A stretch of DNA of 53,802 bases from Desulfotomaculaceae bacterium (GTDB taxonomy: Bacteria > Bacillota > Desulfotomaculia > Desulfotomaculales > Pelotomaculaceae): positions 1-53,802 of the forward strand of contig JAQVXL010000006.1 of NCBI GenBank assembly GCA_028709235.1, given 5' to 3'. Shown here in pieces: positions 297-22,145 of this stretch. The stretch's first letter is position 1. Each line of letters begins with the position of its first letter. Position numbers and translations under genes: made by a program. The notes beneath the pieces are model-generated. The model was not told the origin of the DNA. It saw only the letters and a list, made by a program, of their open reading frames with translations, and did no database searches.

Positions 297-321
297 AAAA
301 CGGCACAGAGAGCCGTTTTTT
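295..321. terminator. bidirectional intrinsic terminator
   Basis: The arms AAAAAACGGC (295-304) and GCCGTTTTTT (312-321) pair perfectly around a 7-base loop. Because each arm carries an A or T run, the hairpin can end transcription from both sides: the plus-strand gene ending at 296 and the minus-strand dynamin operon whose last stop lies at 320-322. Confidence 0.85.
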
Positions 322-580
322 AATGTGCTGTATAGTATAGCAAGAGTGCCAGGAGGACGGCGCCGGAGGCCAGGGACAAGGCTAAAAACCGGGTCATCCG
401 GCAGAAGCTGTCCAGTTGAGAAAGTTCCTTCTCCAGCATGGCCAGCTTATGGTTAATTTGTTGAATTTCCTTGTTAACTATATCTACCCTGTCAGCGGAG
501 GGAGCTACCATTTTTCTGTGTATGGTCGATGCCAGCGACCTGACCAGTTCAGATTGCTCCGGAAGTTTTTCAGTTTTCAT
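320..580 (-). CDS. small C-tail-anchored coiled-coil protein
   Basis: An 86-residue protein, last gene of the dynamin-like operon. The middle (about 30-58) has a helical heptad-like pattern (IVNKEIQQINHKLAMLEKEL). It ends in a single transmembrane segment (about 65-83, ALSLASGAVLLALLLYY) with almost nothing behind it, which is a tail-anchor layout. Its start overlaps the end of the preceding gene by 11 bases, suggesting coupled translation. I recognise no named family. A membrane tether or partner for the upstream GTPase is inference from the operon only. Confidence 0.65.
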   Translation of the reverse strand: MKTEKLPEQSELVRSLASTIHRKMVAPSADRVDIVNKEIQQINHKLAMLEKELSQLDSFCRMTRFLALSLASGAVLLALLLYYTAH

Positions 581-869
581 CTTGATTCCCTCCGCCGGCC
601 TGATTGATAGCGTCCCTGATGGCGGTGAGTATAACCAGGGGTAATTTTTGCACCTCGCCTTCCAGCGTTTCCAGCCTTTCTAATATTTCTGCGATTCTTA
701 CCTGGTTTCCAGCCTCTAATTCTTCCAGGCGGGAGGCTATTTTAGCGTTTCCGTTCATGACAGGCTGTACCATTTTTGCTTTTAGTCCTAAAAGAATGTC
801 ACCAAGCATTTTTTGTATCAACTCGTCCCCGGTTTTTTCAACCACAACCCGTTCTATCTTGTGTTCCAT
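570..869 (-). CDS. small coiled-coil protein
   Basis: A soluble 99-residue protein, predicted to be almost wholly helical, with a likely coiled coil at about 45-80 (SRLEELEAGNQVRIAEILER and following). Cysteine and membrane segments are absent. It sits third in the minus-strand operon headed by the dynamin-like GTPase, 18 bases after the previous stop, with a good AGGAGG-type site before its ATG. The function is unknown. The operon position and helical character suggest a structural partner of the GTPase. Confidence 0.65.
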   Translation of the reverse strand: MEHKIERVVVEKTGDELIQKMLGDILLGLKAKMVQPVMNGNAKIASRLEELEAGNQVRIAEILERLETLEGEVQKLPLVILTAIRDAINQAGGGNQDEN

Positions 870-887
870 TTTACACCTCCTTTTTAG

Positions 888-1082
888 CTAAATTTTGTCA
901 ACAGCATTTTTGAACAGCGCCAGGAACCTGGTAGTTTCCTGCCGGCAATGTTCTTCCAGGATGCTCCGGGTGCTGTGCTCAAAATCATGCAGCAGGGTTT
1001 TATTAATTTCACCGCCTGTCCGAATGCTGACCTCGCGTATAATCCTCTTCAGCCGCTCGTCTAAATGTCTTGCGTTTTCCAT
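888..1082 (-). CDS. small helical protein overlapping the dynamin-like gene
   Basis: A 64-residue charged, apparently all-helical protein. Its ATG at 1082 lies inside the 3' end of the dynamin-like gene, in another frame (74-base overlap). GGGAGG stands about 9 bases before this ATG, which supports the start and suggests coupled translation. The C-terminus (ETTRFLALFKNAVDKI) looks amphipathic. No family is recognised. The neighbours on both sides read in the same direction, so it belongs to one operon of four. Confidence 0.6.
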   Translation of the reverse strand: MENARHLDERLKRIIREVSIRTGGEINKTLLHDFEHSTRSILEEHCRQETTRFLALFKNAVDKI

Positions 1083-3441
1083 TTATTACAAACCTCCCGG
1101 TATCATATATTATGTTTCGGACGTTTTTAATCTGGGATCTGTATTCCCTTAAGCTTTGCAGTGCAGCGCGCAGCATTATTTTCTCACCATGAGCCGGCTG
1201 ACCTGATCGGAGTGTACTGTTTATTTTTTGAGTAGCCGCGTCAAGAATGTAATATATGTCGTTTAACCTGTTCAGGTAAAAATTTCTGCCGCGATATTTC
1301 AGGACGACCTCTTCCAGGCTTTTCAAAAGACTGCTGATCCCGCTTTCACTGCCGGTGAGACCTTTTAAACCGGAGAACATGAATATTTTGGGTTTTGTTT
1401 CTCCCGCTGCATGGAAGGTTGATTTTTTCAGGAAGCTCATAACATAGTTGTAAACTATCTCTCGCTGGGGCAGGCTGAGGGTGTCGGCAAAGCTGATCAC
1501 ATAAAATATTTTTTCATTGTCTTTTAATAACTCTTTTTTTTCGACATGCTCCATATCCTTAAGCCAAAACAAGGAATCAAAATTGTCCCTTTCAATATCG
1601 CTTAAGATGTGTTTACCGTTCAGAAAAACCAGGCAGACGTCACTGTTTTTTATATTGAAAGATGTATTCTGGTGGTGATGCCTTTGGATCCAGTCCAGTC
1701 CGGGTGTATCGACTAACACCGCCAGTTCAAGAAACTCTGAGGGATGTTGGATTTCCACTTCTTTGACCTTAAGCGCACAGTCCGGCCCCATAGCATCCCA
1801 GAAGAGCTGAAGAGTTGCCGGTTCCGAGATGTCGAATTCCCTGGCGCCCGGGTCCTGGAATGTTACTCTTATTTTTTGCGGCGCCTGGCCGCCCTGTAAC
1901 GCTTTGACAGGTATACGCCTGTAGATGGACGGCTGAGCTGTACGGGTAGTCCTGGCGAAAGCGCCGGCAGCAAATAATTCCCTGGTTCTTTTGAGCAGTA
2001 AGGCCATTTCCCGAGGCTCAACGGTTTTAAAACTCCCGTCAATAAACGCTTCTAGAAGTGATATGCCCGATCCATCCACAGTTATCCATCTTTCCAGCGC
2101 CTCCAGCGCAGTCCGGTTCAAGACTGCTTTGTCTCCAACTTGTTCGTAGACCTGCACAGTTGTTTGCAGGGGTGTGTGAATTGTTGCTTTTTTGACGGTA
2201 CCATGCATAATTCTGGTAATCACGGATGTAGTTGGCCCGTCAGCGGCAGGAAGGATATCATCTTTTAACAGGGTGTTGATAAAAGTTGACTTGCCGGTTG
2301 AAAAGCCGCCAGCAACTGTCACTGTAAAGCGTTCAGATGCGATTAAGCCGGAGATCTGGGCAAGCCTCAGCCGGTCAATATATTCTTTAATCACAGGATC
2401 GTTTATAAGCTGCCTGGTTATGCCCAGAAGTGCTGTCCGGTTTTCTCTAATTGTTTGTGTGCGGGGGCGGTATGTCGTGCCGCCGGCTTTTTTTTCTGTT
2501 TCCATAAGGTTTGCTGAAAGGTTTACTGAGTTCATCGCCGCCAGCCTGTGATCCATTTCTTGAACAAAAGAGGGTGTTGTATGGATGAGCCGTCCAGCCT
2601 CCAGAATTGTCCGGATAGTTTGCTGTATACTCCAAAACTCGGCCAGGAAAAGCGCTTCATCTTTAATTGAGGCAACTTTTTTTAATTTGCGCGGAATACC
2701 GGCGTCAATTTTTCTTAGTTCCCCGGCAGCCTGACGGAAATTTTCCCGGGCTAATTGCATTTCCAGAAAAAGACGGAGTGTTTCAATGTTTTCCCGCACC
2801 AGAGTATTAATGGTGTAAATTCTTACCGGACTCATAAATATTTCCCTGAGCGCTGAACGCGAAGTTTCAAGTGAAGTGCCGTCGCTTATGCCCAGATTAC
2901 AGTTCAGCCAAAAAGAAATATCATTTAGGCTTTTTGTTTTCCAGAGTAAAGCAAGTTTATATAAAAAAAGCCGGCTGCTCTTATCAATGCCCCTTTGGTG
3001 GAAAAGGTAGATTATCTTATCGGCTTTTTTGGCGGCCAGTCCGGAGACATTTAATGATTCCCTGTCGGGAGAATCTATGCCGGGAGTGTCTAAAAGCCTG
3101 CACTTTTTTAAAATAGGCGTCGGGATCTCGATCTCAACCCGGCCGCCGGAAACGTTATCTTTAGCCAGAAAAGAGTACAGTTCTGCCGGCTGAAAAAATA
3201 CTTCTTTTCTGTGCCAGTTATATACTGATGCTCTGAAGGAACTGCCGTAGTCAAAATATATCAGGCGGGAAGTTGTGGGCAGGACTCCCACCGGGCTGAG
3301 TTGCAAACCAAGCAGGCTGTTTAAAAGAGTCGATTTGCCTGAGTTAAAGGGTCCCAGGACAGCCAGAAGAGGTTTATAAGTATGCCCCGTTAACTCTCTC
3401 AGGATCTCGGAACTGTTGATAAACTGAGATAAATCACGCAT
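1009..3441 (-). CDS. tandem dynamin-like GTPase
   Basis: A large GTPase of about 810 residues with two dynamin-type G domains in one chain. Counted from the ATG at 3441, the first P-loop is GPFNSGKST (30-38), with a switch TT near 55 and DTPGID at 118-123. The second P-loop is GGFSTGKST (378-386), followed by GPTTS and a DTPGLD further on. Two-domain bacterial dynamin-like proteins are known and remodel or tether membranes. I chose ATG 3441 because GGAGAG lies 7 bases before it; a TTG at 3465 would add eight residues. No obvious transmembrane segment is visible, but the last gene of the operon encodes a tail-anchored protein. Confidence 0.85.
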   Translation of the reverse strand: MRDLSQFINSSEILRELTGHTYKPLLAVLGPFNSGKSTLLNSLLGLQLSPVGVLPTTSRLIYFDYGSSFRASVYNWHRKEVFFQPAELYSFLAKDNVSGGRVEIEIPTPILKKCRLLDTPGIDSPDRESLNVSGLAAKKADKIIYLFHQRGIDKSSRLFLYKLALLWKTKSLNDISFWLNCNLGISDGTSLETSRSALREIFMSPVRIYTINTLVRENIETLRLFLEMQLARENFRQAAGELRKIDAGIPRKLKKVASIKDEALFLAEFWSIQQTIRTILEAGRLIHTTPSFVQEMDHRLAAMNSVNLSANLMETEKKAGGTTYRPRTQTIRENRTALLGITRQLINDPVIKEYIDRLRLAQISGLIASERFTVTVAGGFSTGKSTFINTLLKDDILPAADGPTTSVITRIMHGTVKKATIHTPLQTTVQVYEQVGDKAVLNRTALEALERWITVDGSGISLLEAFIDGSFKTVEPREMALLLKRTRELFAAGAFARTTRTAQPSIYRRIPVKALQGGQAPQKIRVTFQDPGAREFDISEPATLQLFWDAMGPDCALKVKEVEIQHPSEFLELAVLVDTPGLDWIQRHHHQNTSFNIKNSDVCLVFLNGKHILSDIERDNFDSLFWLKDMEHVEKKELLKDNEKIFYVISFADTLSLPQREIVYNYVMSFLKKSTFHAAGETKPKIFMFSGLKGLTGSESGISSLLKSLEEVVLKYRGRNFYLNRLNDIYYILDAATQKINSTLRSGQPAHGEKIMLRAALQSLREYRSQIKNVRNIIYDTGRFVINGKRKTFRRAAEEDYTRGQHSDRR

Positions 3442-3610
3442 ATGAGCACTCTCCGCCTGTGACAAATGTTTCTTACGATTCTATATATTAACGGGCATCT
3501 TCTTTTATGACTTGATATTATTCCGGGAGATTGGGTAGAATCGTTATAACGTTTGGCAAGTTATAAAAATAAATATGAAAATGTTGTTTTCGCTGTGGGG
3601 AGGATTACGC

Positions 3611-4456
3611 ATGGATTTGAGCGGAAAAAACATGTCGGCAGCCGAGGTAGGTGAAATCTTGGGGATAACTCCGTCCTCCGTCCGCAGGCTGGTCCGGGAA
3701 GGTGTCCTGGAGGTGAAGGAAACAAAGCGGTATAAAGCAGGGGAGGAATTATACTTTGACAGCAGCGCAGTGAAAGATCTTTTACCGAGAATGCCGGAAC
3801 TGCGGAGAAAATGGCATTCCGAGGAGAACAGGCGTCTTGGCGCAAGAAAGGCTGCGTTCAAAAGGGTGGATGATGCGGGAAAAGCATTGAGGCACACCGG
3901 TATAAAAAAGAAATTCCTTTTTTCTCTCGAGTTTTACCCGGAAAAAGCGGCTTTGCTATTGCGAGCGTCATTTTTTCTTTACCATCTGAACCATTATGCC
4001 AAGGGTGGGGAAGAATATCTATATGACTTAAAAGAAAAAGTTTTAAAAAAGTTCGTGAGTGATTTTTCAGCGGTGGAAGGTTTGGATATTGTCTTTATTG
4101 AAGGCGGGCAGAAGGTCCTGCTGTGCGCCGGGTGTCGGGTGAAAGCCCAAAGTATGGGCCTCAGCTATTTAAAATACAAAATTAATCATGGAGGCTGCCC
4201 GCAGTGCCGCAAGGAAGAGGACTACTACAGCCTGTTTGAATTCAGGGTGGTATACGGTGAGCACCGGTTTTGTTTTCACACACCCTATTATATAGCCAGA
4301 AAATGGTTTGAAAACATGGCTGAGCTGCCGAAAAAAGTTCGGGAAAAGGGGAAAGAGGAAGCCCTGCCCTTTGGCCGGCCAATTTCCGAGGGCGAGGCCA
4401 GGGCGGTCACCCTGGAAGAAGTTATCCGTGAATTAAAATCTTTTTTGGGAGATTAG
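3611..4456 (+). CDS. HTH and zinc-motif protein
   Basis: A protein of 281 residues. The N-terminus is a MerR/excisionase-like helix-turn-helix (about 8-60; AEVGEILGITPSSVRRLVRE). A basic linker and a helical middle follow, then a four-cysteine zinc-type site (C172, C175, C196, C199). ATG 3611 is preferred over one at 3575 because GGGGAGGA precedes it. The gene ends 4 bases before the SIR2-like gene, so the two should be co-transcribed. The same HTH type occurs twice in the helicase that faces them. DNA binding is likely; the target and role are unknown. Confidence 0.7.
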   Translation: MDLSGKNMSAAEVGEILGITPSSVRRLVREGVLEVKETKRYKAGEELYFDSSAVKDLLPRMPELRRKWHSEENRRLGARKAAFKRVDDAGKALRHTGIKKKFLFSLEFYPEKAALLLRASFFLYHLNHYAKGGEEYLYDLKEKVLKKFVSDFSAVEGLDIVFIEGGQKVLLCAGCRVKAQSMGLSYLKYKINHGGCPQCRKEEDYYSLFEFRVVYGEHRFCFHTPYYIARKWFENMAELPKKVREKGKEEALPFGRPISEGEARAVTLEEVIRELKSFLGD

Positions 4457-4460
4457 CGCA

Positions 4461-5432
4461 TTGAAAACTGTTTATATTTTTGGCGCGGGCGCGTCCGCAG
4501 CAGAAGGGGCGCCTGTTGTGCGCAACTTTCTGCGCGTGGCTTACCGCTATTTTAAGGAGGAGGACTATGACCCGGACCTGGAGATAGTATGGGAGTACCT
4601 GGAGCACTTTTACGGTTACAGCACCAAAATAAGTTCTGGTGAGGAGCTGGACAAGTACCCGGGCATTGATGAAATATTTAATATCGTGGACTGGTATTTG
4701 CTGCATAACCAGGCCTTCTCCAGGCGTTTTTCCGGGCCAAGGCTCCATAACTTGAAGACGGCTCTGGTAAAACTGATCAGCATGACCCTGGACAGGTCGC
4801 TACCGCCGCATCAGGGGATACACCATTCCTTTGTTTCTGGGGTGATAGAAAAAGAAGGTGAACTGCCGGTGTTTATCTCGATGAATTATGACATTGTCCT
4901 GGATAAAGCGATCCGGGCCGCAGGTTACGGCCTTGAATACGGTTTTTACGGTAAACACAGCGAGCATCTTGCATCGAGAGAAAAGATTCCCCTCTACAAG
5001 CTGCATGGCTCACTGAACTGGTCCTTATGCCCGCTCTGCGGTGAAATTTCGGAGCACGAGGAAAAAGTGGCCCACCTCCTGTTTCAAGAGAACAACGTCA
5101 TTCCCTGCTTAAACTGCCGGGGAGAGAAGTCTCAGGCCGTTATTATCGCGCCAACCCTGTATAAATCTTATGGCATAAGCAGGCTGCAGAATATTTGGGA
5201 CAGTGCGGGAGGGGCTATCAGCCACTCTGATCGCCTGGTGATTATAGGCTACTCGCTGGCTCTCGCCGATACTTCAATAATTGCTACAATAAAAAGGTCT
5301 TTAAACACGGCGGATAAGGACAGGAAGATCGTGGTAATTAATCCCAACAAGCGTGCCTGCGAACGTTACAGCCAGATTTTTGGCGAGAAATGCAGCATTA
5401 CACGCAGCGCTTTTACCGGGCAGGTGATCTAA
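4461..5432 (+). CDS. SIR2-like NAD-binding protein with zinc ribbon
   Basis: 323 residues from a TTG start. The features of a SIR2 fold are present: GAGAS near the N-terminus (8-12), NYD at 142-144 where classical sirtuins have NID, a candidate catalytic His in LHGSLNW (H182), two zinc pairs (C190/C193 and C216/C219), and GYS at 263-265. Family members remove acyl groups from proteins or, in several phage-defence systems, hydrolyse NAD. Which applies here cannot be told by eye; the zinc ribbon favours a deacylase-like core and the NYD motif resembles the NADase-type branch. It is co-directional with the HTH/zinc gene and convergent with the helicase. Confidence 0.75.
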   Translation: MKTVYIFGAGASAAEGAPVVRNFLRVAYRYFKEEDYDPDLEIVWEYLEHFYGYSTKISSGEELDKYPGIDEIFNIVDWYLLHNQAFSRRFSGPRLHNLKTALVKLISMTLDRSLPPHQGIHHSFVSGVIEKEGELPVFISMNYDIVLDKAIRAAGYGLEYGFYGKHSEHLASREKIPLYKLHGSLNWSLCPLCGEISEHEEKVAHLLFQENNVIPCLNCRGEKSQAVIIAPTLYKSYGISRLQNIWDSAGGAISHSDRLVIIGYSLALADTSIIATIKRSLNTADKDRKIVVINPNKRACERYSQIFGEKCSITRSAFTGQVI

Positions 5433-5439
5433 GCGGAAC

Positions 5440-5488
5440 GGAGACACACCTCTGTTTGGAGATTGGCTTTGTAGTCGAGGTATGTCCC
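5440..5488. repeat. dispersed palindromic repeat, copy A
   Basis: GGAGACACACCTCT at 5440-5453 pairs with GAGGTATGTCCC at 5477-5488 around a 23-base centre. The same arms and several centre positions occur in opposite orientation at 19215-19264. This copy fills the 62-base gap between the convergent SIR2-like and helicase genes, where it could fold in transcripts from both sides. It resembles small REP or MITE-type elements. Confidence 0.65.
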
Positions 5489-5494
5489 AGTTGT

Positions 5495-8400
5495 TTAGAA
5501 GCTCAGGGCCACCTCGTCGCGGTCCAGACGATTCCTTACAGCCTGCAGTCTTTCAACCAGGCCAGGGTTGCCCGCCGCCGCACGCTCTACCTGGCGGAGC
5601 AGGTCTATCTCCCTTCTGAAGAGCGAAAATATATCGCCCGGTTGCAGTGAAGACATTTCAAGAAGATCATTAAAGCTGGCTCCGTTATACCAGGCATGAG
5701 CCAGTGCGCCGGGCACGCCGGACCAGATGCAGAACCTCTCGGGCACGCCCATCTCAAGCAAGTTGCGCCTGATTAAAGATGTTTCATGTAGCGCGGGCAG
5801 GTCCAACCTGGCCACATGTATATTCTTACCCGGGATATATTCCACACCAGCCATGACAGCGGCAACTTCAGCTGGGTCGGCGTCTTCCAACAAGCCTGAA
5901 AAAGCCAGTTCAGTAACCAATATTTCCTGCACGTGCAGTTCCAGCGCAAATATGCCCCGCGGGTAAAATTCACGTTCTTTCATGTAACCAAGCTCTTCCA
6001 GAAGGTTGCGTACTTCTTTATACTCAGTAAAAATTGAGTTGGCGTTTTCTGAAACTACCTTGTATTCTTCCTTAAGGAGGCGTAAGAATTTCTGTGATTG
6101 TTTTAGTTTCTCAGTCGTGACGCGGCATTTTTCCGGATCACGGCATTTCTTTGGAGCAATTGAAGACAATTTTTTCTGAAGAAGTTCTTTTTCTTTGTTT
6201 CTGCCTTTCCAGCGGAACCGCTTCAACTTCCTGCGGGCTTTCACCCGCTCCAGAGGGCAGGCCAGGGTCTGGCTGTCCGGGCAGACTGACAGCTCTGAAA
6301 TTCTTTCCGATACTATTTTAATTTCCAGCTCGAGGCTGTCCTTTCTCTTTTTAAGCTGGTGTATTTTGAAATTTCCATTTAAAAAATGTTTTATTTCATC
6401 ATCAGTTTTATAATACAACAGGCTCAGTACAGTATTAGGAGAAATAGTCAGCCTGCCGGTTACCGGCTCTACTTCCTTTTCTTGGAAAAAACCTGTTTGT
6501 TCGGGAAAGCGACTGTCAATACGGACAAAAACATGACCGACCTGGTCAAACCCGCGCCGCCCGGCGCGACCGGCTATCTGAAAGAATTCTCTGTTCTGCA
6601 GGATACGGAAGTCGTGGCCGTCCCATTTTCTAGTGGAGTCGAAAACAGCGCTGGCAGCTGGAAAATTCACACCTGCGGCAAAAGTTTCCGTACAGAAAAC
6701 CACCCACAGCATCCGTTTAGAGTAGAGTTTCTCGACAAGGTATTTCACCGGGGGCAAAAGCCCGGCGTGGTGATAGCCGATGCCCTGGTATAGCAGCCGT
6801 CGCAGTTTCCGCCAGCCCGGGCCGCTGAAAGTGCCGGGGTGTTCAGCCTCAGCTTCTCTAATTTGTTTTTCAACCATTCGTTTTTCTTTGCTGTCAAGAA
6901 AATCCCAGTCATGTCCCAGTTCTTGCGCCAGGATTTCGGTTCGTCCCCGGCTGAAAACAAAAAAGAGGGCGGGAAGTTTATCCTGGATCAGCCCGGTTAT
7001 TTCACTGCAGGATAATTCCGGCAGTTCGGCTGTCTTATTTGTTTCATTCCAGTGCCTTCTGTTGCGTAAGGTCTTAGAATATTCGACCAGATCCCCGATC
7101 TCCCCACGGGCTTCCCTCTCCGAAACAATTCGTCCGCTGGGCAACAGCCAGCGAACCGCCAGTGGCACGGTCCTCCTTTTCTCTAGAATGACTACAACAT
7201 TTCCACCGCGGACGGAACTAATCCAGTCGGCCATTTCATCCACATTGGGTACTGTCGCAGAAAGCCCTAAAATTTTAACATGGGGAGGAGCGAATAATAT
7301 ACTCTCCTCCCAGGTAGTGCCGCGTTCCGCGTCGTCCAGGTAATGGATTTCATCAAATACCACGTAAGAGGTTTTTTCCAACTGCTCCGGTTCACTGAGG
7401 CACCAGTTCCTGAATATTTCCGTGGTCATAATCAGCATCGGCGCTCCCGGATTGATGCTGATGTCTCCAGTTACCAGACCTACTGAATCATCTCCGAACA
7501 GTTCCCTGAAATCCCTGTATTTTTGGTTTGAAAGGGCTTTTAAAGGTGACGTATAGATCATCCCCAGTCCCTGAGACATCACATCCTTCGCCAGCATCTC
7601 CGCCACCAGGGTTTTGCCGTTTCCGGTAGGGGCGGAGACAAGCACGGAGAGACCCTCACGCAGGGCTTCCGCCGCCTCGATTTGAAAATCGTCCAAGGTC
7701 AATATGTCAGCCGGCGGAGTTGCTGCTTCCTGTCTGCGCGGCGGTCTTTTCTTAGGCCGTACAACCAGGCCGTGGTCAGCTTTCGGGACTTGTCCCCTGC
7801 CGGCGCTCCATCCGGATATAATAACTGGAATTAAACCGCGCAGTTCTTCTAGATCACTGCGTTTTAACAAGCTCACTGGAGCACGGCTGTTGGTTTTCTC
7901 ATATAGGACTGGGATTAGCCTTCCTTCTTCAACCAGACGTTCGACCTGGCCGGGAGTTATACCCAGCAGGGCGGCAGCATCAGTCGTCTTTATATTTTCA
8001 TGCGTCATCGCGATATTGCGGAGTCTGTCCCTGTCTTTTTTTAAATCTTCAATGTCAGACCGCCAAAATCGTTTTCTTTCGTCAAGCAGAAAATACTTCA
8101 GTTCTCCGGACTTAACCAAATATGTCAGCGCGTCCAGGTCTAAACCAAGGGCGCTTGCCGCCTCATTTTCAACCAGAGAGTGTTCTTTAAGAAAGGCGGG
8201 AGCGCTGGCCGCATGCGGCGGGGCAAAGTAACGTCCGGATATATCACCGAGCTGTTCGACAAAGACCTCACCGGGAAACTCCCGGCGCAAGCAGTAATAC
8301 TTTTTCTCCTCGAACTTCACTTTAACCGCTATAATGTTTGCGATATAAGCAAATTCATCATTTTCTATGGCCAGCTTTGCGGGTATAAAAAAAGGTTGGG

Positions 8401-9148
8401 TCAGGGCATCCAGCGTATCCCGGATCGTCTTTAACCTCTCGCGCTTTGCTGAAACTTTCCTGCCTTCTTCTGAGTCCGGGGTGGTTATAAGCCCTCTGGG
8501 CAATCTAATAAAAGGTTCCCGGTCAATCCCGGCGGTAAGCCTCGCAGTTATTTCCCTGTGCCCGCTGAATAGTCGCAGCAAGTCTGCGTGGCGCCGGGGT
8601 CTCTCGCCGATGTATCGTAAAAGGCTTTCCCAGGCGCCTTTACTGTCAGGAACCGTATACCGCCCGTCCGGCAGCCGGCATAAGCTGCGCCAAACCGGAT
8701 GTTTGATATCTTCCAAACCGGTGGACGCGATAATCTCCTCACGGCTGCGTGGAATACCGTCATCCAGCAGTGTTGTAATGATTTTCTGCTGCTCGCCGAT
8801 ATATTTACTGCTGCAGAGATCTTGTGTCTGGCTGTATTTTTTTCTCAATACTTTAAGCACTTTGGGAAGATCGCGGCGCATTTCTCCCCGGTTGGTGTGC
8901 CAGGTAACCGTGCCGTTCGGCGTAATAACGGATTTTTCTCCAAGCATCCACCCGGCTCTGTTTTTCAGCCGTCCGATTAAAATTTCCTCTTTTTCAATAA
9001 GCGAAGAAAGGGCGCCTGCTATGGAATCATAATCGCAGTCACATTGGGAGTATACTACTTCCAGGGGAACGGGTCCGTGCCCGCTTAAAATAGATAAAAG
9101 ACGCTCTCTGGCCTGTTTTGTATTCGGGTTCGCCAAGATGACAGACAC
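5495..9148 (-). CDS. Ski2-like superfamily 2 helicase with N-terminal HTH modules
   Basis: 1217 residues. The helicase core is clear: Walker A APTGNGKT (506-513), DEIH (599-602), LSATVPN around 629-635, and a late QIAGRAGRRG motif VI, as in Ski2/Mtr4-type RNA helicases. The 490-residue N-terminal part is not standard for Ski2 and holds two HTH-like modules (around 325-370 and 385-438; AAALLGITPGQVERLVEEGR), like that of the facing HTH/zinc protein. After the core there are two cysteine pairs (Cx7C, then Cx5C) flanking a basic coil. The start may instead be TTG 9136, which has AGAGGTG at proper spacing. Substrate unknown. Confidence 0.85.
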   Translation of the reverse strand: MSVILANPNTKQARERLLSILSGHGPVPLEVVYSQCDCDYDSIAGALSSLIEKEEILIGRLKNRAGWMLGEKSVITPNGTVTWHTNRGEMRRDLPKVLKVLRKKYSQTQDLCSSKYIGEQQKIITTLLDDGIPRSREEIIASTGLEDIKHPVWRSLCRLPDGRYTVPDSKGAWESLLRYIGERPRRHADLLRLFSGHREITARLTAGIDREPFIRLPRGLITTPDSEEGRKVSAKRERLKTIRDTLDALTQPFFIPAKLAIENDEFAYIANIIAVKVKFEEKKYYCLRREFPGEVFVEQLGDISGRYFAPPHAASAPAFLKEHSLVENEAASALGLDLDALTYLVKSGELKYFLLDERKRFWRSDIEDLKKDRDRLRNIAMTHENIKTTDAAALLGITPGQVERLVEEGRLIPVLYEKTNSRAPVSLLKRSDLEELRGLIPVIISGWSAGRGQVPKADHGLVVRPKKRPPRRQEAATPPADILTLDDFQIEAAEALREGLSVLVSAPTGNGKTLVAEMLAKDVMSQGLGMIYTSPLKALSNQKYRDFRELFGDDSVGLVTGDISINPGAPMLIMTTEIFRNWCLSEPEQLEKTSYVVFDEIHYLDDAERGTTWEESILFAPPHVKILGLSATVPNVDEMADWISSVRGGNVVVILEKRRTVPLAVRWLLPSGRIVSEREARGEIGDLVEYSKTLRNRRHWNETNKTAELPELSCSEITGLIQDKLPALFFVFSRGRTEILAQELGHDWDFLDSKEKRMVEKQIREAEAEHPGTFSGPGWRKLRRLLYQGIGYHHAGLLPPVKYLVEKLYSKRMLWVVFCTETFAAGVNFPAASAVFDSTRKWDGHDFRILQNREFFQIAGRAGRRGFDQVGHVFVRIDSRFPEQTGFFQEKEVEPVTGRLTISPNTVLSLLYYKTDDEIKHFLNGNFKIHQLKKRKDSLELEIKIVSERISELSVCPDSQTLACPLERVKARRKLKRFRWKGRNKEKELLQKKLSSIAPKKCRDPEKCRVTTEKLKQSQKFLRLLKEEYKVVSENANSIFTEYKEVRNLLEELGYMKEREFYPRGIFALELHVQEILVTELAFSGLLEDADPAEVAAVMAGVEYIPGKNIHVARLDLPALHETSLIRRNLLEMGVPERFCIWSGVPGALAHAWYNGASFNDLLEMSSLQPGDIFSLFRREIDLLRQVERAAAGNPGLVERLQAVRNRLDRDEVALSF

Positions 9149-12699: not shown

Positions 12700-14424
12700 T
12701 TATTCCTGCATCAGTTTTATTAACTGGTTCAGAAGGATCTTGGTCTCCGCGGTGGTTTCCCCCAGCAAGCCCGCTATTTCCTGGGATACAGTCATTTGTT
12801 TTTTAATCACTTCCCGGGCCCGATCAATAGTCTGAGTTTTCACATGTAAAAGTTCTTCTTGCTGGTTCATTTCTTTGGTAATGTCGGCAAATATACCTGC
12901 TACCATATTTTCCAGCGGGAAAATAATCTGGCGGGTGATAGTCCTGTTTTTCAGGATGCAGAAATCAGTTACCACCGCTTTCTTTTCTTCTAAGACAAGC
13001 TGGAACTCTCTTGGATCAATTAACAGGTCAAGCCGTTGGCCGATTATCTGCCTGCTTTGGGGGTCAAACATTTTTAACGCTGCCGGATTGATCTCAGTTA
13101 CAACCAGGTTTTCATCAGCTATGATCACAGCGTTGGGCATCGCGTTGAGGACCTGGTTGGATATGGATTCAGCCCGTTTTCTCATGTAGGGAATGCACAT
13201 CTGCGGTTCAGCATGACCCCTGAAGACTGCTACGGCCTTTTCCCTGCAAGAGCCGAAACCACAAGCCCCGCAGTTTAGTTCGTCCTGCGGGCTATACTTG
13301 CCGCTCTGATTCAAGATGTTCTTTATTTGCTCTTCATTTGGAACTGGCAATTTAACTTCCCTGTTTTCAAAAGTGCGGACCAAATCCGTCGATGGCAGTG
13401 ACGGAGCTGGTCTGGTTTCAGGATATTTGTTCGTTTTTAATTGACTGTGGGAGTAAAAATAAAGTAATTTTTGCTTTTTAGAATAGATATCGTCACGGGT
13501 AACCCCTTGCGGGCCGCCCAGACACCCGCCGTCGCAGGCCAGCATCTCCATAAAATTTGGTATCTGGTTTTTATCCAGTTGACAGAAATTATTTAGCAGG
13601 TCCATACAATTCTGCAGCCCGGTTACTGTCTGCACCTCTTTGTCCATGATATCGGTGCTCAGGGATGTTGCCAGCAGTTGACCTCCTTCGGCAGGAAACA
13701 TGTTTGCTTTACCCGGTATATAGCCGTCAAATTCCGCGGATTCAAGGTTGTTTAAATCGGTGCCTTCCTCTTCAAACCAGTTCCATACTTCATTGAATCC
13801 CAGGGTATAGTCGACAGCGCCCTTTACCTTGTCAGAAACGATCTCGCCTTTCTTAGCGATGCAGGGTCCTATGAACACTACCACACAGCCGGGGTATTGC
13901 TTTTTCAAAAGCTTCCCGTGGGCGATCAGAGGCGAAACTAAAGGTGATAAATTCGGAATAAGGTGTGGGTAGTGCTGTTCAATGAGGTTGACTACTGCCG
14001 GGCAGGCGCTGGATATTACCGGTACCGGTATATTTAACCGGTGATGTTCATTTGCAATCAATTCCGCTCCAACCGCGGTCAGCCCCACGTGGGAGAAACC
14101 CATACCCTTCAGCAGACCAGGCAAGGCTAAAGGATTGGGCAGCGGTAGATGGACCGGGTAAGAGGGCGCAACACTGGCCACAACTGTAAGGGATTTATTT
14201 GACAGGAGGTCTTTTATCTCATCAAGATCGTTTTTAACTACCTTTGCCTTTTGCGGGCAGGTTATTGTACAATAGCCGCATTTCACGCAGATTTCTTCAA
14301 TGACTTTGGCGTGAGTCTGAATATTGCAGGGGCCGGAGTCGATACAAATTGCTTTAAGCGGGCATGAACGGACACACTTGTAACAGTCGCGGCATTTTGC
14401 GTCATTTGTTTTAATTAGAGGCAT
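12700..14424 (-). CDS. hsfB: sensory [FeFe] hydrogenase HsfB-type with PAS domain
   Basis: 574 residues. Two 4Fe-4S ferredoxin motifs come first (C11, C14, C17, C21 and C46, C49, C52, C56). Then come the H-cluster motifs SSACP (L1), GPCIAKKGE (L2) and EMLACDGGCLGG (L3). A CGACGFGSC four-cysteine domain, a PAS domain (about 425-530) and a C-terminal helix follow. In L1 the usual proton-transfer cysteine of TSCCP is alanine, a change reported in sensory group members, so slow catalysis and a regulatory job are expected. Its start overlaps the broken 2Fe-2S gene upstream, and a SpoIIE-type phosphatase follows. Confidence 0.9.
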   Translation of the reverse strand: MPLIKTNDAKCRDCYKCVRSCPLKAICIDSGPCNIQTHAKVIEEICVKCGYCTITCPQKAKVVKNDLDEIKDLLSNKSLTVVASVAPSYPVHLPLPNPLALPGLLKGMGFSHVGLTAVGAELIANEHHRLNIPVPVISSACPAVVNLIEQHYPHLIPNLSPLVSPLIAHGKLLKKQYPGCVVVFIGPCIAKKGEIVSDKVKGAVDYTLGFNEVWNWFEEEGTDLNNLESAEFDGYIPGKANMFPAEGGQLLATSLSTDIMDKEVQTVTGLQNCMDLLNNFCQLDKNQIPNFMEMLACDGGCLGGPQGVTRDDIYSKKQKLLYFYSHSQLKTNKYPETRPAPSLPSTDLVRTFENREVKLPVPNEEQIKNILNQSGKYSPQDELNCGACGFGSCREKAVAVFRGHAEPQMCIPYMRKRAESISNQVLNAMPNAVIIADENLVVTEINPAALKMFDPQSRQIIGQRLDLLIDPREFQLVLEEKKAVVTDFCILKNRTITRQIIFPLENMVAGIFADITKEMNQQEELLHVKTQTIDRAREVIKKQMTVSQEIAGLLGETTAETKILLNQLIKLMQE

Positions 14425-17578: not shown

Positions 17579-19027
17579 ATGAATTTTGACCAGAACAGAA
17601 CGCCACTATTTGACGCTGTCAAATATCATGTCAAAAGAAACGCGATTCCACTGCAGATACCAGGCCACAAGCAGGGATACGGCTTAGCGGAATACAGGGA
17701 ATTTGTCGGGGAAAACGTCCTTAAAATGGATCTGAACGAGACCCGTGGCATCGATATGATCTGGGACCCGGTCTCAGTTATTGCAGAGGCGGAAAAACTG
17801 CTGGCAGAAGCATTAGGGGCCAACCATGCATATTTCTTGATTAACGGGACGACTTCCGGCGTGCAGGCCATGATTATGAGTTCCTGCACACCCGGTGATC
17901 AGATTATACTGCCCAGAAATGCCCATAAGTCAATTTTTAACGGGCTGATTCTGAGCGGGGCCAAGCCAGTTTATGTTCTGCCCAAAATTGACGACTACCT
18001 GGGTATTGTCACCGGCATCACGGCGGAAGGACTGCAGGGAGCCATAGAAAAGAGCCGGAACGCCAAGGCGGTTATGACCATAAACCCATCCTATTACGGT
18101 GTGGCCTCTGAACTGGAGAGAATTGTGGAAACAGCACACGACAGCTGTATCCCGGTGCTGGTGGACGAGGCGCACGGCACCCACATGTGCTTTCATCCGT
18201 ATTTCCCGATATCAGCCATGGCGGCCGGGGCTGATATGAGCGCAGCCAGCCTGCATAAAACCGGCGGTTCCATGACCCAGAGTTCCGCGCTCCTCGTCGG
18301 CAGCAGTAAAATTAATCCAAACTATATTAAACAGGTGCTTAACCTTACCTACACATCCAGCCCGTCATATATCCTGCTCTGTTCTCTGGACGTGGCTAGA
18401 AAGCAGCTGGCGATTAACGGCAGGCAGATGCTTGACCAGATTTTGGGGCTTGTACGCCGGACCAGGGCAGAAATCAATAAAATTGACGGTCTATTTGCCC
18501 CTGATAAGAGTTATTTTGAAAGGTCAGGTAAATTCAGCTTCGATGAAACAAAACTCCTGGTGAGTGTGCAAAAACTGGGCTTGACCGGGTACGAAGTGGA
18601 AGAAATACTGGCCAAAGATTACAACATATTGATCGAGCTGGCGGACATGTACAACATTCTGGCCGTGATCAGCCTGGGAGAGAAAGAAGAATTCCTGCAG
18701 TCTTTTGTGGCTGCCCTGCGGGACATCGCCACTCGCGCCAAAAAGAAAGAAGTAAAAAGAATAGAAACGGTCCAGTTCAGTCCGGAGGTAGTAATGCCGC
18801 CAAGAGACGCGTTCTTCAGTAAAAAAAGGTCCGTTCCGCTTGAACAATGCGCTGGAGAAATCGCCGGGGAAATGGTCATGGTGTATCCTCCTGGAATACC
18901 CCTGGTCAGCATGGGAGAGATCATTACCGCGGACATTATTGATTACGTAAAGATGCTCAAGGAAGAAAGATGTACAATTCAGGGTACCATTGACCCGATT
19001 GTGGACAATATCATGGTGTTGGACTAG
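17579..19027 (+). CDS. speA: PLP-dependent Orn/Lys/Arg decarboxylase (SpeA-like)
   Basis: 482 residues of the short Gram-positive class. The N-terminus holds IPGHKQG and LNETRGID, the PLP fold has DEAHGTH (196-202), and the Schiff-base lysine is K227 in ASLHKTGGS. The C-terminal domain ends with VYPPGIPLVSMGE. Members decarboxylate arginine, lysine or ornithine to begin polyamine synthesis; arginine is most common for this length, but specificity cannot be read here. It is last in a run of three co-directional genes. A stem-loop follows at 19056-19093. Confidence 0.85.
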   Translation: MNFDQNRTPLFDAVKYHVKRNAIPLQIPGHKQGYGLAEYREFVGENVLKMDLNETRGIDMIWDPVSVIAEAEKLLAEALGANHAYFLINGTTSGVQAMIMSSCTPGDQIILPRNAHKSIFNGLILSGAKPVYVLPKIDDYLGIVTGITAEGLQGAIEKSRNAKAVMTINPSYYGVASELERIVETAHDSCIPVLVDEAHGTHMCFHPYFPISAMAAGADMSAASLHKTGGSMTQSSALLVGSSKINPNYIKQVLNLTYTSSPSYILLCSLDVARKQLAINGRQMLDQILGLVRRTRAEINKIDGLFAPDKSYFERSGKFSFDETKLLVSVQKLGLTGYEVEEILAKDYNILIELADMYNILAVISLGEKEEFLQSFVAALRDIATRAKKKEVKRIETVQFSPEVVMPPRDAFFSKKRSVPLEQCAGEIAGEMVMVYPPGIPLVSMGEIITADIIDYVKMLKEERCTIQGTIDPIVDNIMVLD

Positions 19028-19303: not shown

Positions 19304-20080
19304 ATGTTTAAAGTTGCAAGCTTCAATACAAACTCAATCCGGGCCCGCCTGCCACTGGTGCTGGATTGGCTGGACAGGGAGAAAGTTGATGTGCTGTGCC
19401 TGCAGGAAACTAAGGTGGAGGATAAAGACTTCCCGCTCGCGGATTTTACAAAGAAGGGCTACAATGCTGTCTTTAACGGGCGAAAATCGTATAACGGCGT
19501 CGCTATTATCAGCCCGCACGTGCTGGAAAAAGTGCACACCGGAATTGGAGACTGGGCGGAGGCAGATGAGGCGCGCCTGATTGAGGCTACTGTGAAGGGA
19601 ATTCCCGTGGTGAATACATATGTGCCGCAGGGAAGTGATCCGAATAGCGACAAATTTGTCTATAAGCTCAAGTGGATCAGGTCTCTAAGAGAGTATTTTG
19701 ACAACCGCTTTAAACCGGATGACTGCCTGATCTGGATGGGCGATTTCAATGTAGCGCCGGAGCCGATAGATGTGCATAATCCTAAAAAACTTTACGGCCG
19801 TATAGGTTTTCATCCGGAAGAGCATAAAGCTCTTCAGTATGTAAAGGAATGGGGTTTTGTTGACGTGTTCCGCCTCCATGTAAAAGAAGGAGGCCATTAC
19901 ACCTTCTGGGACTACCGGAGGCCGAATCTTTTTGAACGAAATTTAGGCTGGCGGGTAGACCACATCTGGGCGACCGGGCCAATGGCCGCCAGGTCGCGCC
20001 GAGCCTGGATCGATACTAAACCGAGGGGAGAGATTAAACCTTCAGACCATACTTTTATCGGTGCTGAGTTTGCCTGGTGA
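19304..20080 (+). CDS. xth: exodeoxyribonuclease III
   Basis: 258 residues, the normal length of the family. The order of motifs is complete: ASFNTNSIRARL, LCLQETKVED with the metal-binding glutamate, SYNGVAIIS, the GDFNVAPEPIDVH loop, FVDVFRLH, and GWRVDHIWAT followed by PSDHTFI with the catalytic Asp-His pair. The enzyme cuts abasic sites and removes 3' blocking groups in base excision repair. Its last 26 bases overlap the end of the convergent histidine kinase gene. Confidence 0.92.
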   Translation: MFKVASFNTNSIRARLPLVLDWLDREKVDVLCLQETKVEDKDFPLADFTKKGYNAVFNGRKSYNGVAIISPHVLEKVHTGIGDWAEADEARLIEATVKGIPVVNTYVPQGSDPNSDKFVYKLKWIRSLREYFDNRFKPDDCLIWMGDFNVAPEPIDVHNPKKLYGRIGFHPEEHKALQYVKEWGFVDVFRLHVKEGGHYTFWDYRRPNLFERNLGWRVDHIWATGPMAARSRRAWIDTKPRGEIKPSDHTFIGAEFAW

Positions 20081-22145
20081 TTTGTTTACATAACAATTCT
20101 TCTATTTGCTTTACCTTGAACCTGACGTAGAAGGTTGTTCCACCCGTACTGGTTTCCACATTTATCGTGGCGTTGTGCCTGGAAGCAATGCTGTAGCATA
20201 CCGCCAGTCCCAGTCCGGTGCCGTTTTCTTTAGTGGTGCAGAACGGTGTGCCTATTTTCTCCAGCACAGTTGAGTCTATTCCCTTTCCGCAATCCTGTAT
20301 TGCTAAAATCACTTCGCCATTGTCAGCAGATGTTTTTATTGTCAAACGCCCGCCGGGGGGCATTGCCTCAAGCCCGTTGCGAACGAGGTTGAGGAGCAGC
20401 TGGCGGATCTCCTTTTCATCCAGGAACAGCTCGGGGATATCAGCCAGTTTTATTTCTATGTTTTTATCCGTAACCAGCGCGTCCGCTGTTATTAATGGCA
20501 AGATAACAGATATTATCCTGTTAAGACTTTGCATCTTTAATTCAACAGGCTTGTTTTTAGCCAGAGACAGGTACTCGGAGATGATGGAATTGGCTCTGTC
20601 CAGTTCCTCGATCATCAGGTTGAAATAGTCTTTGTACCTGGCGCAGTCATCCTTCTCCCTAAGCATTTGCAGGAAGCCGCGCACGGTAGTCATCGGGTTT
20701 CTGATCTCGTGGCCGATGCCGGCAGCCATTTCCCCCACCAGATTTAGCCGGTCCAGGCGGGCTATCTCCTTTCCCAAACGCTTTTGCTCGGTAATATCGA
20801 TTCCCAATCCCAATACCAGCAAAGAACCGTCGATATCATAGAAAGGGTAGTAATAGCTTTGGTAAATTTTATCCCCTAAAACAATACATTTTCGTCGCTT
20901 TGCGGTATTAGTTTTCATTACGATTTGAATGGGACAATCTGTACAGGGAACCTCCCGCTGGTTAAAAATTTTGTAACAGGATCTTCCCTTTATCTCACCG
21001 AAGTTTTCACGAATTCTTTTGTTGGCAAAGACCAGTGAATAATCGGGCGCAATCAGGCAGATAGTGGCAGGCATACTTTCAAGAAGCGAAAAGAGTCTGA
21101 GACGCTCGGCTTCAAGCGCTTCCTCAGCCCGCCGGCGATTAAGTATTTCTTTTTGCAGTCCCAGATTAGCCGTTTCAAGATCTTTGGTCCGTTCCTTGAC
21201 CAGTTCTTCAAGGTGATCGCGGTGTCTCCTTAACTCGTCCTCAAGCTTCTTACGTTCGGTAATATCGCGGGAGATGCCGGCCGTTCCAATGACCGACCAG
21301 TTTTCATCTAAAATTGGAACCTTAATAGTCTCAAGCAAGAATTGATACCCTCGCCGGTCTACCAGAAGTTCTTCAACCCGTTTCATCCGGCCTGAATCGA
21401 CCACCTGCCGGTCGTTGGCCATGTACCCTTCAGCCAGTTTTTTTGGCCAGATGTGCAGGTCTGTTTTGCCCACGAGGTTATCCGGCTCCACGCCGCAGGC
21501 CTGTCCGTAAGGTTGGTTGACGGCGATAAAGCGGCTTTCCCGGTCCTTGAGCCAGGCAATATCCGGAATGCTGTCCAGCAGGGCTTTTTGCTGCATAAAT
21601 AATTTTAAAGCCCGGTCCGCAGACTCCAGCTGGCCTTTCTTCTCCAACCCCAGCATAGCTAAGAATTGTGCCAGCTGAGAGAAAAAGATCATAATTGATT
21701 CGGCGCGCTCCTTAGGAATGATCGGGACCCGGCGGAGCGCTTCGATGTAGTCAGTTTCGCCAAATCCGTTCTCCCGCGCCTGCCGGCGAAAAAACTCCTC
21801 ATCTGGTGGCTCATGCAGGAACTGCCCTAAACACATAGTTGCCAGGTGCTGCCCTTCCACAATGATCGGAGTGCCATAATCCATAAGGCCGTTCAAACAT
21901 TTATACCCGATAAAAGGTCCTTCATGCAGGTGTTCAGATATGTAGCTGTCGCTGATCTTGCATTTGTATTCAATCTGTGGACACACGCGATGAAACTTGG
22001 TGCAGATATCCTGCCAGCCTGCCCCGCTCAGGATGTTGCCGTCGACATCATGAATGCCATGGGGTATTCCTGTTGCTTCATAAAATGAATTCAACAATTT
22101 CTGAAGGCGCTGAATATCTACGAGATCTGAGAACTTATATTGCAT
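20055..22145 (-). CDS. PocR-PAS-PAS sensor histidine kinase
   Basis: 696 residues with no membrane segment. A PocR ligand-binding domain comes first (about 1-160; several cysteines including C48, C55, C62, C83). Then PAS (about 188-297), a coiled coil (298-350), a second PAS with a CTDC pair (352-455), HisKA with H479 in GHEIRNP, and HATPase with LLNLVRNGLEAM, DCGKGID and GTGLGLAV. PocR domains bind small organic ligands, metals or similar cues; the substrate is unknown. No response regulator gene lies next to it, so it is an orphan kinase here. Confidence 0.88.
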   Translation of the reverse strand: MQYKFSDLVDIQRLQKLLNSFYEATGIPHGIHDVDGNILSGAGWQDICTKFHRVCPQIEYKCKISDSYISEHLHEGPFIGYKCLNGLMDYGTPIIVEGQHLATMCLGQFLHEPPDEEFFRRQARENGFGETDYIEALRRVPIIPKERAESIMIFFSQLAQFLAMLGLEKKGQLESADRALKLFMQQKALLDSIPDIAWLKDRESRFIAVNQPYGQACGVEPDNLVGKTDLHIWPKKLAEGYMANDRQVVDSGRMKRVEELLVDRRGYQFLLETIKVPILDENWSVIGTAGISRDITERKKLEDELRRHRDHLEELVKERTKDLETANLGLQKEILNRRRAEEALEAERLRLFSLLESMPATICLIAPDYSLVFANKRIRENFGEIKGRSCYKIFNQREVPCTDCPIQIVMKTNTAKRRKCIVLGDKIYQSYYYPFYDIDGSLLVLGLGIDITEQKRLGKEIARLDRLNLVGEMAAGIGHEIRNPMTTVRGFLQMLREKDDCARYKDYFNLMIEELDRANSIISEYLSLAKNKPVELKMQSLNRIISVILPLITADALVTDKNIEIKLADIPELFLDEKEIRQLLLNLVRNGLEAMPPGGRLTIKTSADNGEVILAIQDCGKGIDSTVLEKIGTPFCTTKENGTGLGLAVCYSIASRHNATINVETSTGGTTFYVRFKVKQIEELLCKQITRQTQHR

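Follow-up and report, generated by a model that had tools for sequence, protein, structure and literature searches.

The window analysed here is a stretch of 53,802 nucleotides from a Desulfotomaculaceae bacterium (contig JAQVXL010000006.1 of assembly GCA_028709235.1, positions 1 to 53,802 of the forward strand). Its positions 3611-9148 are occupied by three genes: those for an HTH/zinc protein, which we term P1, for a SIR2-like protein and for a helicase. As a preliminary description of this DNA had it, the first two lie on the forward strand and the third converges on them from the reverse strand. The stop codon of P1 and the start of the SIR2-like gene are 4 nt apart and each gene is preceded by a ribosome-binding-type motif; from this tight spacing on one strand we infer that the two are co-transcribed. 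As the first start codon of several relatives of the helicase matches the TTG at 9136, which has GAGG upstream, the helicase is probably about 1213 residues long and starts at this TTG. The features of the region and of its immediate surroundings are:

320-580, reverse strand: c8, an 86-residue protein beside the dynamin-like gene, recognized by clustering
570-869, reverse strand: c4, a 99-residue protein beside the dynamin-like gene, recognized by clustering
1009-3465, reverse strand: tandem dynamin-like GTPase (two stretches of Pfam Dynamin_N), divergent from P1
3611-4456, forward strand: P1, 281 residues, ATG start with GGGGAGGA upstream; MerR-type HTH, helical middle and four-cysteine part
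4461-5432, forward strand: SIR2-like protein, 323 residues, TTG start with GGGAG upstream; Pfam SIR2_2, with NYD, KLHGS and two C-x2-C pairs
5495-9148, reverse strand: helicase, 1217 residues as counted from the GTG at 9148
7724-9148, reverse strand: N-terminal extension of the helicase (residues 1-475, from the alignment), found in only part of the order
7790-7996, reverse strand: MerR/excisionase-type HTH module of the helicase, common to P1 (profile comparison and HTH-model search)
7079-7699, reverse strand: RecA1 of the helicase (Walker A APTGNGKT, DEIH, SAT), a separate gene, HELn, in most relatives
7028-7042, reverse strand: fusion junction of the helicase, residues 703-707 (TNKTA), from the comparison with split relatives and the low pLDDT of the linker
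5498-7003, reverse strand: RecA2, winged helix/ratchet, four-cysteine stalk and DSHCT of the helicase (alignment, motifs V and VI), a separate gene, HELc, in most relatives

Elsewhere the window encodes a hydrogenase-like Fe-S protein (12700-14424), an Orn/Lys/Arg decarboxylase (17579-19027) and a PocR-PAS histidine kinase (20055-22145), an ordinary chromosomal context.

The helicase gives Pfam matches to DEAD (87.4 bits, above the cut-off), to the C-terminal DSHCT family (63.5 bits against a cut-off of 22.7) and to HTH_17 (32.1 bits against 27), and its motifs follow one another in the order Walker A (residue 506), DExH (599), SAT (630), TETFA.G.N (820) and QxxGRxGRRG (857). In a PDB sequence search the solved structures closest to it come from Ski2 and Mtr4 (E about 1e-82), and a model of residues 470-1217 (pLDDT 88.1) superposes on Mtr4 (2xgj_B) with a Z-score of 39.0 and an rmsd of 3.4 over 682 aligned residues. 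Judged by sequence and model, the protein is a bacterial Ski2/Mtr4-type DExH helicase, and most likely a chromosomal motor working on RNA, its presumed substrate. The ends and a three-residue loop aside, the model falls below a pLDDT of 50 only in the linker at residues 698-706, which is the place where the gene is cut in other species. No Pfam arch family (the stalk and KOW of the Mtr4 arch) is found in the helicase at E-values up to 1, and the corresponding region instead has a helical stalk with four cysteines between residues 956 and 1008 (about 6125-6283 of the window). These cysteines and the DExH motif are present in all 84 members of the order that were scored, fused genomes included; some outgroup lineages are devoid of the cysteines. 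They may bind zinc at the position that the arch occupies in Mtr4.

A search of the class covered 113 genomes, all of one order, which the named matches indicate to be Desulfotomaculales; 94 of them have a match to the helicase and many of these matches break at query residues about 690-712, that is between RecA1 and RecA2. Since listed open-frame lengths can cross stops, the gene states were taken by reading the DNA directly in 85 of the 94 genomes, nine (G002, G009, G011, G046, G049, G052, G073, G074 and G085) being left out for weaker matches or broken contigs. RecA1, sought on the strand of RecA2 over the 1.5 kb preceding it, was present in all 84 genomes checked. The census gives 76 genomes scored as split, eight as fused and one (G069) without RecA2 at a contig end; with a fragment (G090) set aside, 75 of the 83 assessable genomes of the order have the helicase split into two adjacent genes. 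The Walker A and SAT motifs are present in every one of the 76 split pairs, and motifs V and VI in all except that of G090. The C-terminal start of each pair was taken as the candidate with the best ribosome-binding-type motif: measured thus, the distance from the stop of HELn to the start of HELc has a median of 7 nt, with an overlap in 21 of 75 pairs and a spacing of 0-60 nt in 49. A motif of at least four bases precedes HELc in 50 of the 75, a figure for which the start was picked for the motif and which has no shuffled control. The long N-terminal part of the window helicase had been called unusual, and this is borne out by the split relatives: in 33 of 76 the N-part is shorter than 340 residues and has little beyond RecA1 (at least one, in G012, being cut by a contig end), and in 43 it has 400 residues or more, the N-terminal extension being present in those inspected.

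The same division is seen in named genomes. In a scan of these, from which the best 80 of 513 loci were taken, split helicases occur for example in Pelotomaculum terephthalicicum JT, Desulfofundulus australicus DSM 11792, Desulforamulus aeronauticus DSM 10349, Desulfotruncus arcticus DSM 17038 and Desulfoscipio geothermicus DSM 3669, and fused ones, within the order, in the closest relatives of the window, in P. propionicicum MGP and at locus L231. Among the same 80 loci, 25 of 27 from outside the order are single-chain, including five from Desulfosporosinus; in the two exceptions (L239 and L250) the break falls inside RecA1 or close to it and not at the linker. One locus without RecA1 at a contig end (L230) was given no state. 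Three loci (L200, L204 and L231) are labelled Actinobacteria, Armatimonadetes and Deltaproteobacteria, labels that clash with their placement in the tree, and are perhaps from mislabelled metagenome bins. Across the phylum, 121 of 398 genomes have a helicase match: the frames measure 517-579 residues in the ten further members of the order and mostly 700-900 residues in the strong matches from outside it, lengths that in both cases can cross stops. Plasmids were also considered as carriers of relatives of the whole helicase: 129 plasmid records match, none of them covering 80% of it.

The direction of change was approached with a tree of 40 rows (34 from the order, a part of the census, and six outgroup), built by a quick method from RecA1 plus RecA2C. 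The seven fused rows of the window's family, six from its genus and one from another, form one clade nested inside the split rows of the family, with SH-aLRT support of 89 for the fused clade, 93 with G109 added and 97 at the next fork; in a larger FastTree, made without L239 and L250, the fused clade is nested likewise. The tree needs four changes of gene state. It carries a long-branch warning, and an outgroup row (L232) falls among those of the order; parallel splits in place of re-fusion thus keep some probability. At the junction, HELn of a split relative ends in RNRKRWMEE before its stop and HELc begins, after its start, with ELPE, and the window reads RNRRHWNE-TNKTA-ELPE across the boundary. 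The window linker matches the C-terminal end of HELn plus the N-terminal end of HELc of its split relatives, and TNKTA lies between these former gene ends, as expected if two genes had been joined by a small change. From these comparisons we infer that the gene was split once, long ago, and later fused, and not that it was split many times in parallel. In the latter case the single chain would be ancestral in the family and would have been cut many times independently at the same linker, with no re-fusion: the outgroups and G072, a fused genome outside the window's family, are single-chain, and the linker is a permissive breaking place. Against this, by our reading of the tree about eight independent splits at one boundary would be required, and the window linker agrees with the ends of the split genes. 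Moreover, forcing the split family rows into one clade is 43 log units worse (AU p 0.00087) and forcing all split rows together gives an AU p of 2e-67, a test that is strict only for groups named before the trees, both of these having been named afterwards. We regard parallel splitting as unlikely. With an old split and a later fusion as the preferred reading, G072 may be a second fusion, or else a pointer to a second split.

The N-terminal extension of the helicase has a further connection, namely to P1. The HTH of P1 scores 24.3 bits with Pfam HTH_17, just under the cut-off of 27, and the pattern LGITP..V..LV.EG, noted earlier in both proteins, occurs in P1 and at residue 395 of the helicase. 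This resemblance goes beyond chance: a comparison of profiles of P1 and of the helicase N-terminal part (28 rows each) aligns 67 columns with a probability of 97.4 and an E-value of 1.2e-11, and continues beyond the HTH core through a tail whose end is a common tryptophan. An HTH model of 70 positions, built from nine rows drawn from both proteins, was searched in the 25 genomes of the window's family and matched 30 times in 23 of them, by coordinates always in P1 or the helicase; as the model was built from both, it is the absence of any third protein that is informative here. The HTH is found in both proteins in seven of the 25 genomes, in the helicase alone in 14, in P1 alone in two and in neither in two. 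The two with P1 alone, G103 (L097) and G105 (L098), have a helicase without the HTH stretch, and conversely G106 (L093) and G107 (L091) keep the helicase HTH, P1 being a remnant or not found. The two carriers of the module are hence not strictly coupled. Beyond its HTH, P1 has four cysteines (C172, C175, C196 and C199) that are invariant in all 28 aligned rows. Its model has a pLDDT of 88.4 and gave no Foldseek match at E-values up to 0.001.

The SIR2-like protein belongs to the Pfam SIR2_2 family (30.8 bits against a cut-off of 24.5) and falls under the cut-off of the canonical sirtuin family, SIR2 (PF02146; 19.5 bits against 24). The NYD motif to which the preliminary description had drawn attention is kept in all 16 aligned rows, as are GAGAS, KLHGS and the two C-x2-C pairs; N142, D144 and H182 are invariant among them. 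No second Pfam domain was found on the protein. Its sequence does not discriminate between a deacylase and an NADase.

The three genes differ in their distribution. P1 has matches in 39 of the 113 genomes, 31 of them over most of its length (59% in G104) and the others being remnants or matches to the helicase HTH alone. The SIR2-like protein has matches in 54, of which 20 reach at least 66% identity; these 20 are confined to the window's family and include a contig-end fragment in G090; one genome from outside the family (G055) has a match at 40%, and the remaining matches are remnants or distant paralogs. Of the 25 family genomes, all have the helicase, 20 the SIR2-like gene and nine P1 (one partial). 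All three genes are found in five genomes (G000, G086, G087, G089 and G096), each time in one neighbourhood. By adjacencies read by eye from the search coordinates, the 20 genomes with a close relative of the SIR2-like gene have it within 5 kb of the helicase gene in 11 cases, on another contig in eight (some of these contigs being short and not all cases resolved) and 37 kb away in G092; P1 is within 5 kb of the helicase gene in eight of nine, and about 50 kb off in G097. A layout that recurs in the family runs from c8 and c4 through the tandem dynamin-like gene, P1 and SIR2 and a gene of about 354 residues (c5) to the helicase gene, single genomes being without one or more of these. The window is without c5, and a sister genome (G104) has a c5 remnant between P1 and the helicase. 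No Pfam family is found in c5, nor in the relatives of c4 (L091:8640-8936) and c8 (L091:8929-9186); an identification of c5 as a DUF155/RMD1 protein was accordingly set aside.

At 17 loci outside the family (L132-L147 and L312), P1 is never with the helicase: it is with the dynamin-like gene and c5 at four (L136, L137, L140 and L312), with c5 at one (L138) and with neither at 12. Taken with the layouts in the family, this marks the trio as the meeting point of two neighbourhoods. The dynamin-like GTPase is the recurrent neighbour of both P1 and the SIR2-like gene, and in several families of the order there is a cluster of c5, P1 or another small gene, the tandem dynamin-like GTPase, a protein of 64-65 residues and c4, with varying members (window 1009-3465, L136, L137, L140 and L305-L314). 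In other families a short ORF separates the dynamin-like gene from c5; considered as a P1 remnant, it gave no convincing match to P1 at ten loci. A SIR2 remnant stands beside an intact P1 in G097 (L131), a P1 remnant beside SIR2 in G099 (L315) and G106 (L093), and remnants of both are seen in G098, which points to repeated decay of P1 or SIR2 across genomes.

The preliminary description had taken the three genes for a functional set, possibly in defence. In such an anti-phage or surveillance set, the helicase would sense, P1 would regulate and the SIR2-like protein would deplete NAD; we see a small chance of this. The SIR2-like protein does keep NYD and KLHGS and has Aga_SIR2 as its best PADLOC match, the HTH is common to P1 and the helicase, and the neighbourhood is kept in part of the family. 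At none of the 17 loci outside it, however, does P1 stand with the helicase, and genes that keep together within a single family need not for that reason work as a set. The search for co-occurrence tells against the set, largely in the way that the preliminary description had named as refuting: the helicase is widespread, mostly without the other two, and the close SIR2-like gene is away from the helicase in nine of 20 genomes. The SIR2-like protein is also without a second Pfam domain, and ten further proteins of the window are not defence-like, Pfam assigning them housekeeping-like families or none. Scans for a defence system at the locus with PADLOC (six proteins), PHROGs (four) and Pfam recovered none, the PADLOC matches to the helicase covering the generic motor, in stretches within residues 483-1045. 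What survives of the earlier proposal is thus a partly conserved neighbourhood and a specific common HTH, and not the functional set or the defence role.

The finding worth following is instead the split and re-fused Ski2-type helicase. We propose an explanation that, taken as a whole, we consider probable: a helicase split in the order, working as a heterodimer and re-fused in the window's clade. Most families of the order would carry it as a chromosomal motor, though not a universal one, 19 of the 113 genomes having no match to it, and in their common ancestor the gene would have been cut in the flexible linker between the RecA domains to give two adjacent genes: HELn, specifying RecA1 with or without the N-terminal HTH extension, and HELc, specifying RecA2, the winged helix, the ratchet, the four-cysteine stalk and DSHCT. 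In SF2 helicases the ATP site needs both the Walker A and B motifs of RecA1 and the motif VI arginines of RecA2, and two separate chains would therefore have to assemble; the adjacency of HELn and HELc, their common motifs and their fusion in relatives are in keeping with an obligate heterodimeric helicase. In the clade of the window a minor alteration where the stop of one gene meets the start of the other would have rejoined the two in frame, and would have added about five residues to a linker already flexible. The N-terminal HTH may be a targeting module, and, because P1 carries the same private module, P1 probably recognizes the same partner or site. P1 would further be tied by gene order to the dynamin-like GTPase, and the SIR2-like gene would be a family-level passenger beside the helicase and P1 genes. 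We give an even chance to the bolder proposal that most of the order runs a Ski2/Mtr4-type helicase as an obligate two-chain motor whose ATP site is formed only on assembly, that the separate chains permit partners to be exchanged or the N-terminal targeting part to be controlled, a part which is present in some families and absent in others, that one lineage has re-fused them, and that P1, with its same HTH, competes with or recruits the helicase.

There is a slight chance that programmed frameshifting or stop read-through makes a single chain from the two ORFs: in some species these share a frame and are separated by a stop, but TGA, TAA and TAG are all found as these stops, the frame relations vary, the distances between the N- and C-terminal genes span -86 to +172 nt, and HELc has a start codon before it, with the ribosome-binding-type motif already counted. 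That the splits are gene decay or sequencing errors can be dismissed as most improbable, for while draft and metagenome assemblies are numerous among the genomes, the split is also present in one-contig genomes (G022, G062 and G095) and in named isolates, and the motifs are intact in 75 of 76 pairs.

To our knowledge, models of helicases take the two RecA domains to be tethered within a single chain, and among the titles and abstract openings listed by one open-access library none reports a helicase whose RecA domains are naturally divided between two chains. A two-chain DExH motor over most of an order, together with a re-tethered lineage, would make the need for the tether directly testable. 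In these genomes each of the helicase genes, taken alone, shows half of the motor.

Several known systems can be set beside the components of this locus. The N-terminal HTH of P1 matches those of the MerR/BldC/excisionase type, such as BrlR (Z 7.7 over 62 residues) and BldC (Z 7.3 over 55 residues), but these matches leave its helical and four-cysteine parts uncovered. The SIR2-like protein has the SIR2_2 fold and the NYD and HG motifs in common with Aga_SIR2 (E 1.3e-12) and other defence SIR2-like proteins; in contrast to these it is stand-alone and keeps two C-x2-C pairs, and its neighbours are P1 and the helicase, Pfam and PADLOC finding no Argonaute of a SIR2-Argonaute (SPARSA) system among the proteins scanned. 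The helicase resembles HamB of Hachiman (best E 2e-24) and the PDC-M23B helicase (best E 1.7e-26) in the generic SF2 motor, the matched stretches being confined to the part of it given above, and no HamA is found by PADLOC among the six neighbouring window proteins (323-9148). The archaeal DNA helicases Hel308/Hjm have the same motor arrangement (Z about 24-26), and NCBIfam NF040935 matches the window helicase at an E-value of 8e-43; this likeness is however weaker than that to Mtr4 by both sequence and structure, and the 146 bits with NF040935 are far under its cut-off of 1200 bits. The closest parallel is with Mtr4 and Ski2, which have the DExH motor, winged helix, ratchet and DSHCT in common with the window helicase: it departs from them in the arch region, where Pfam finds no arch family and a short four-cysteine stalk stands, and in that its relatives in most of the order have the motor on two genes.
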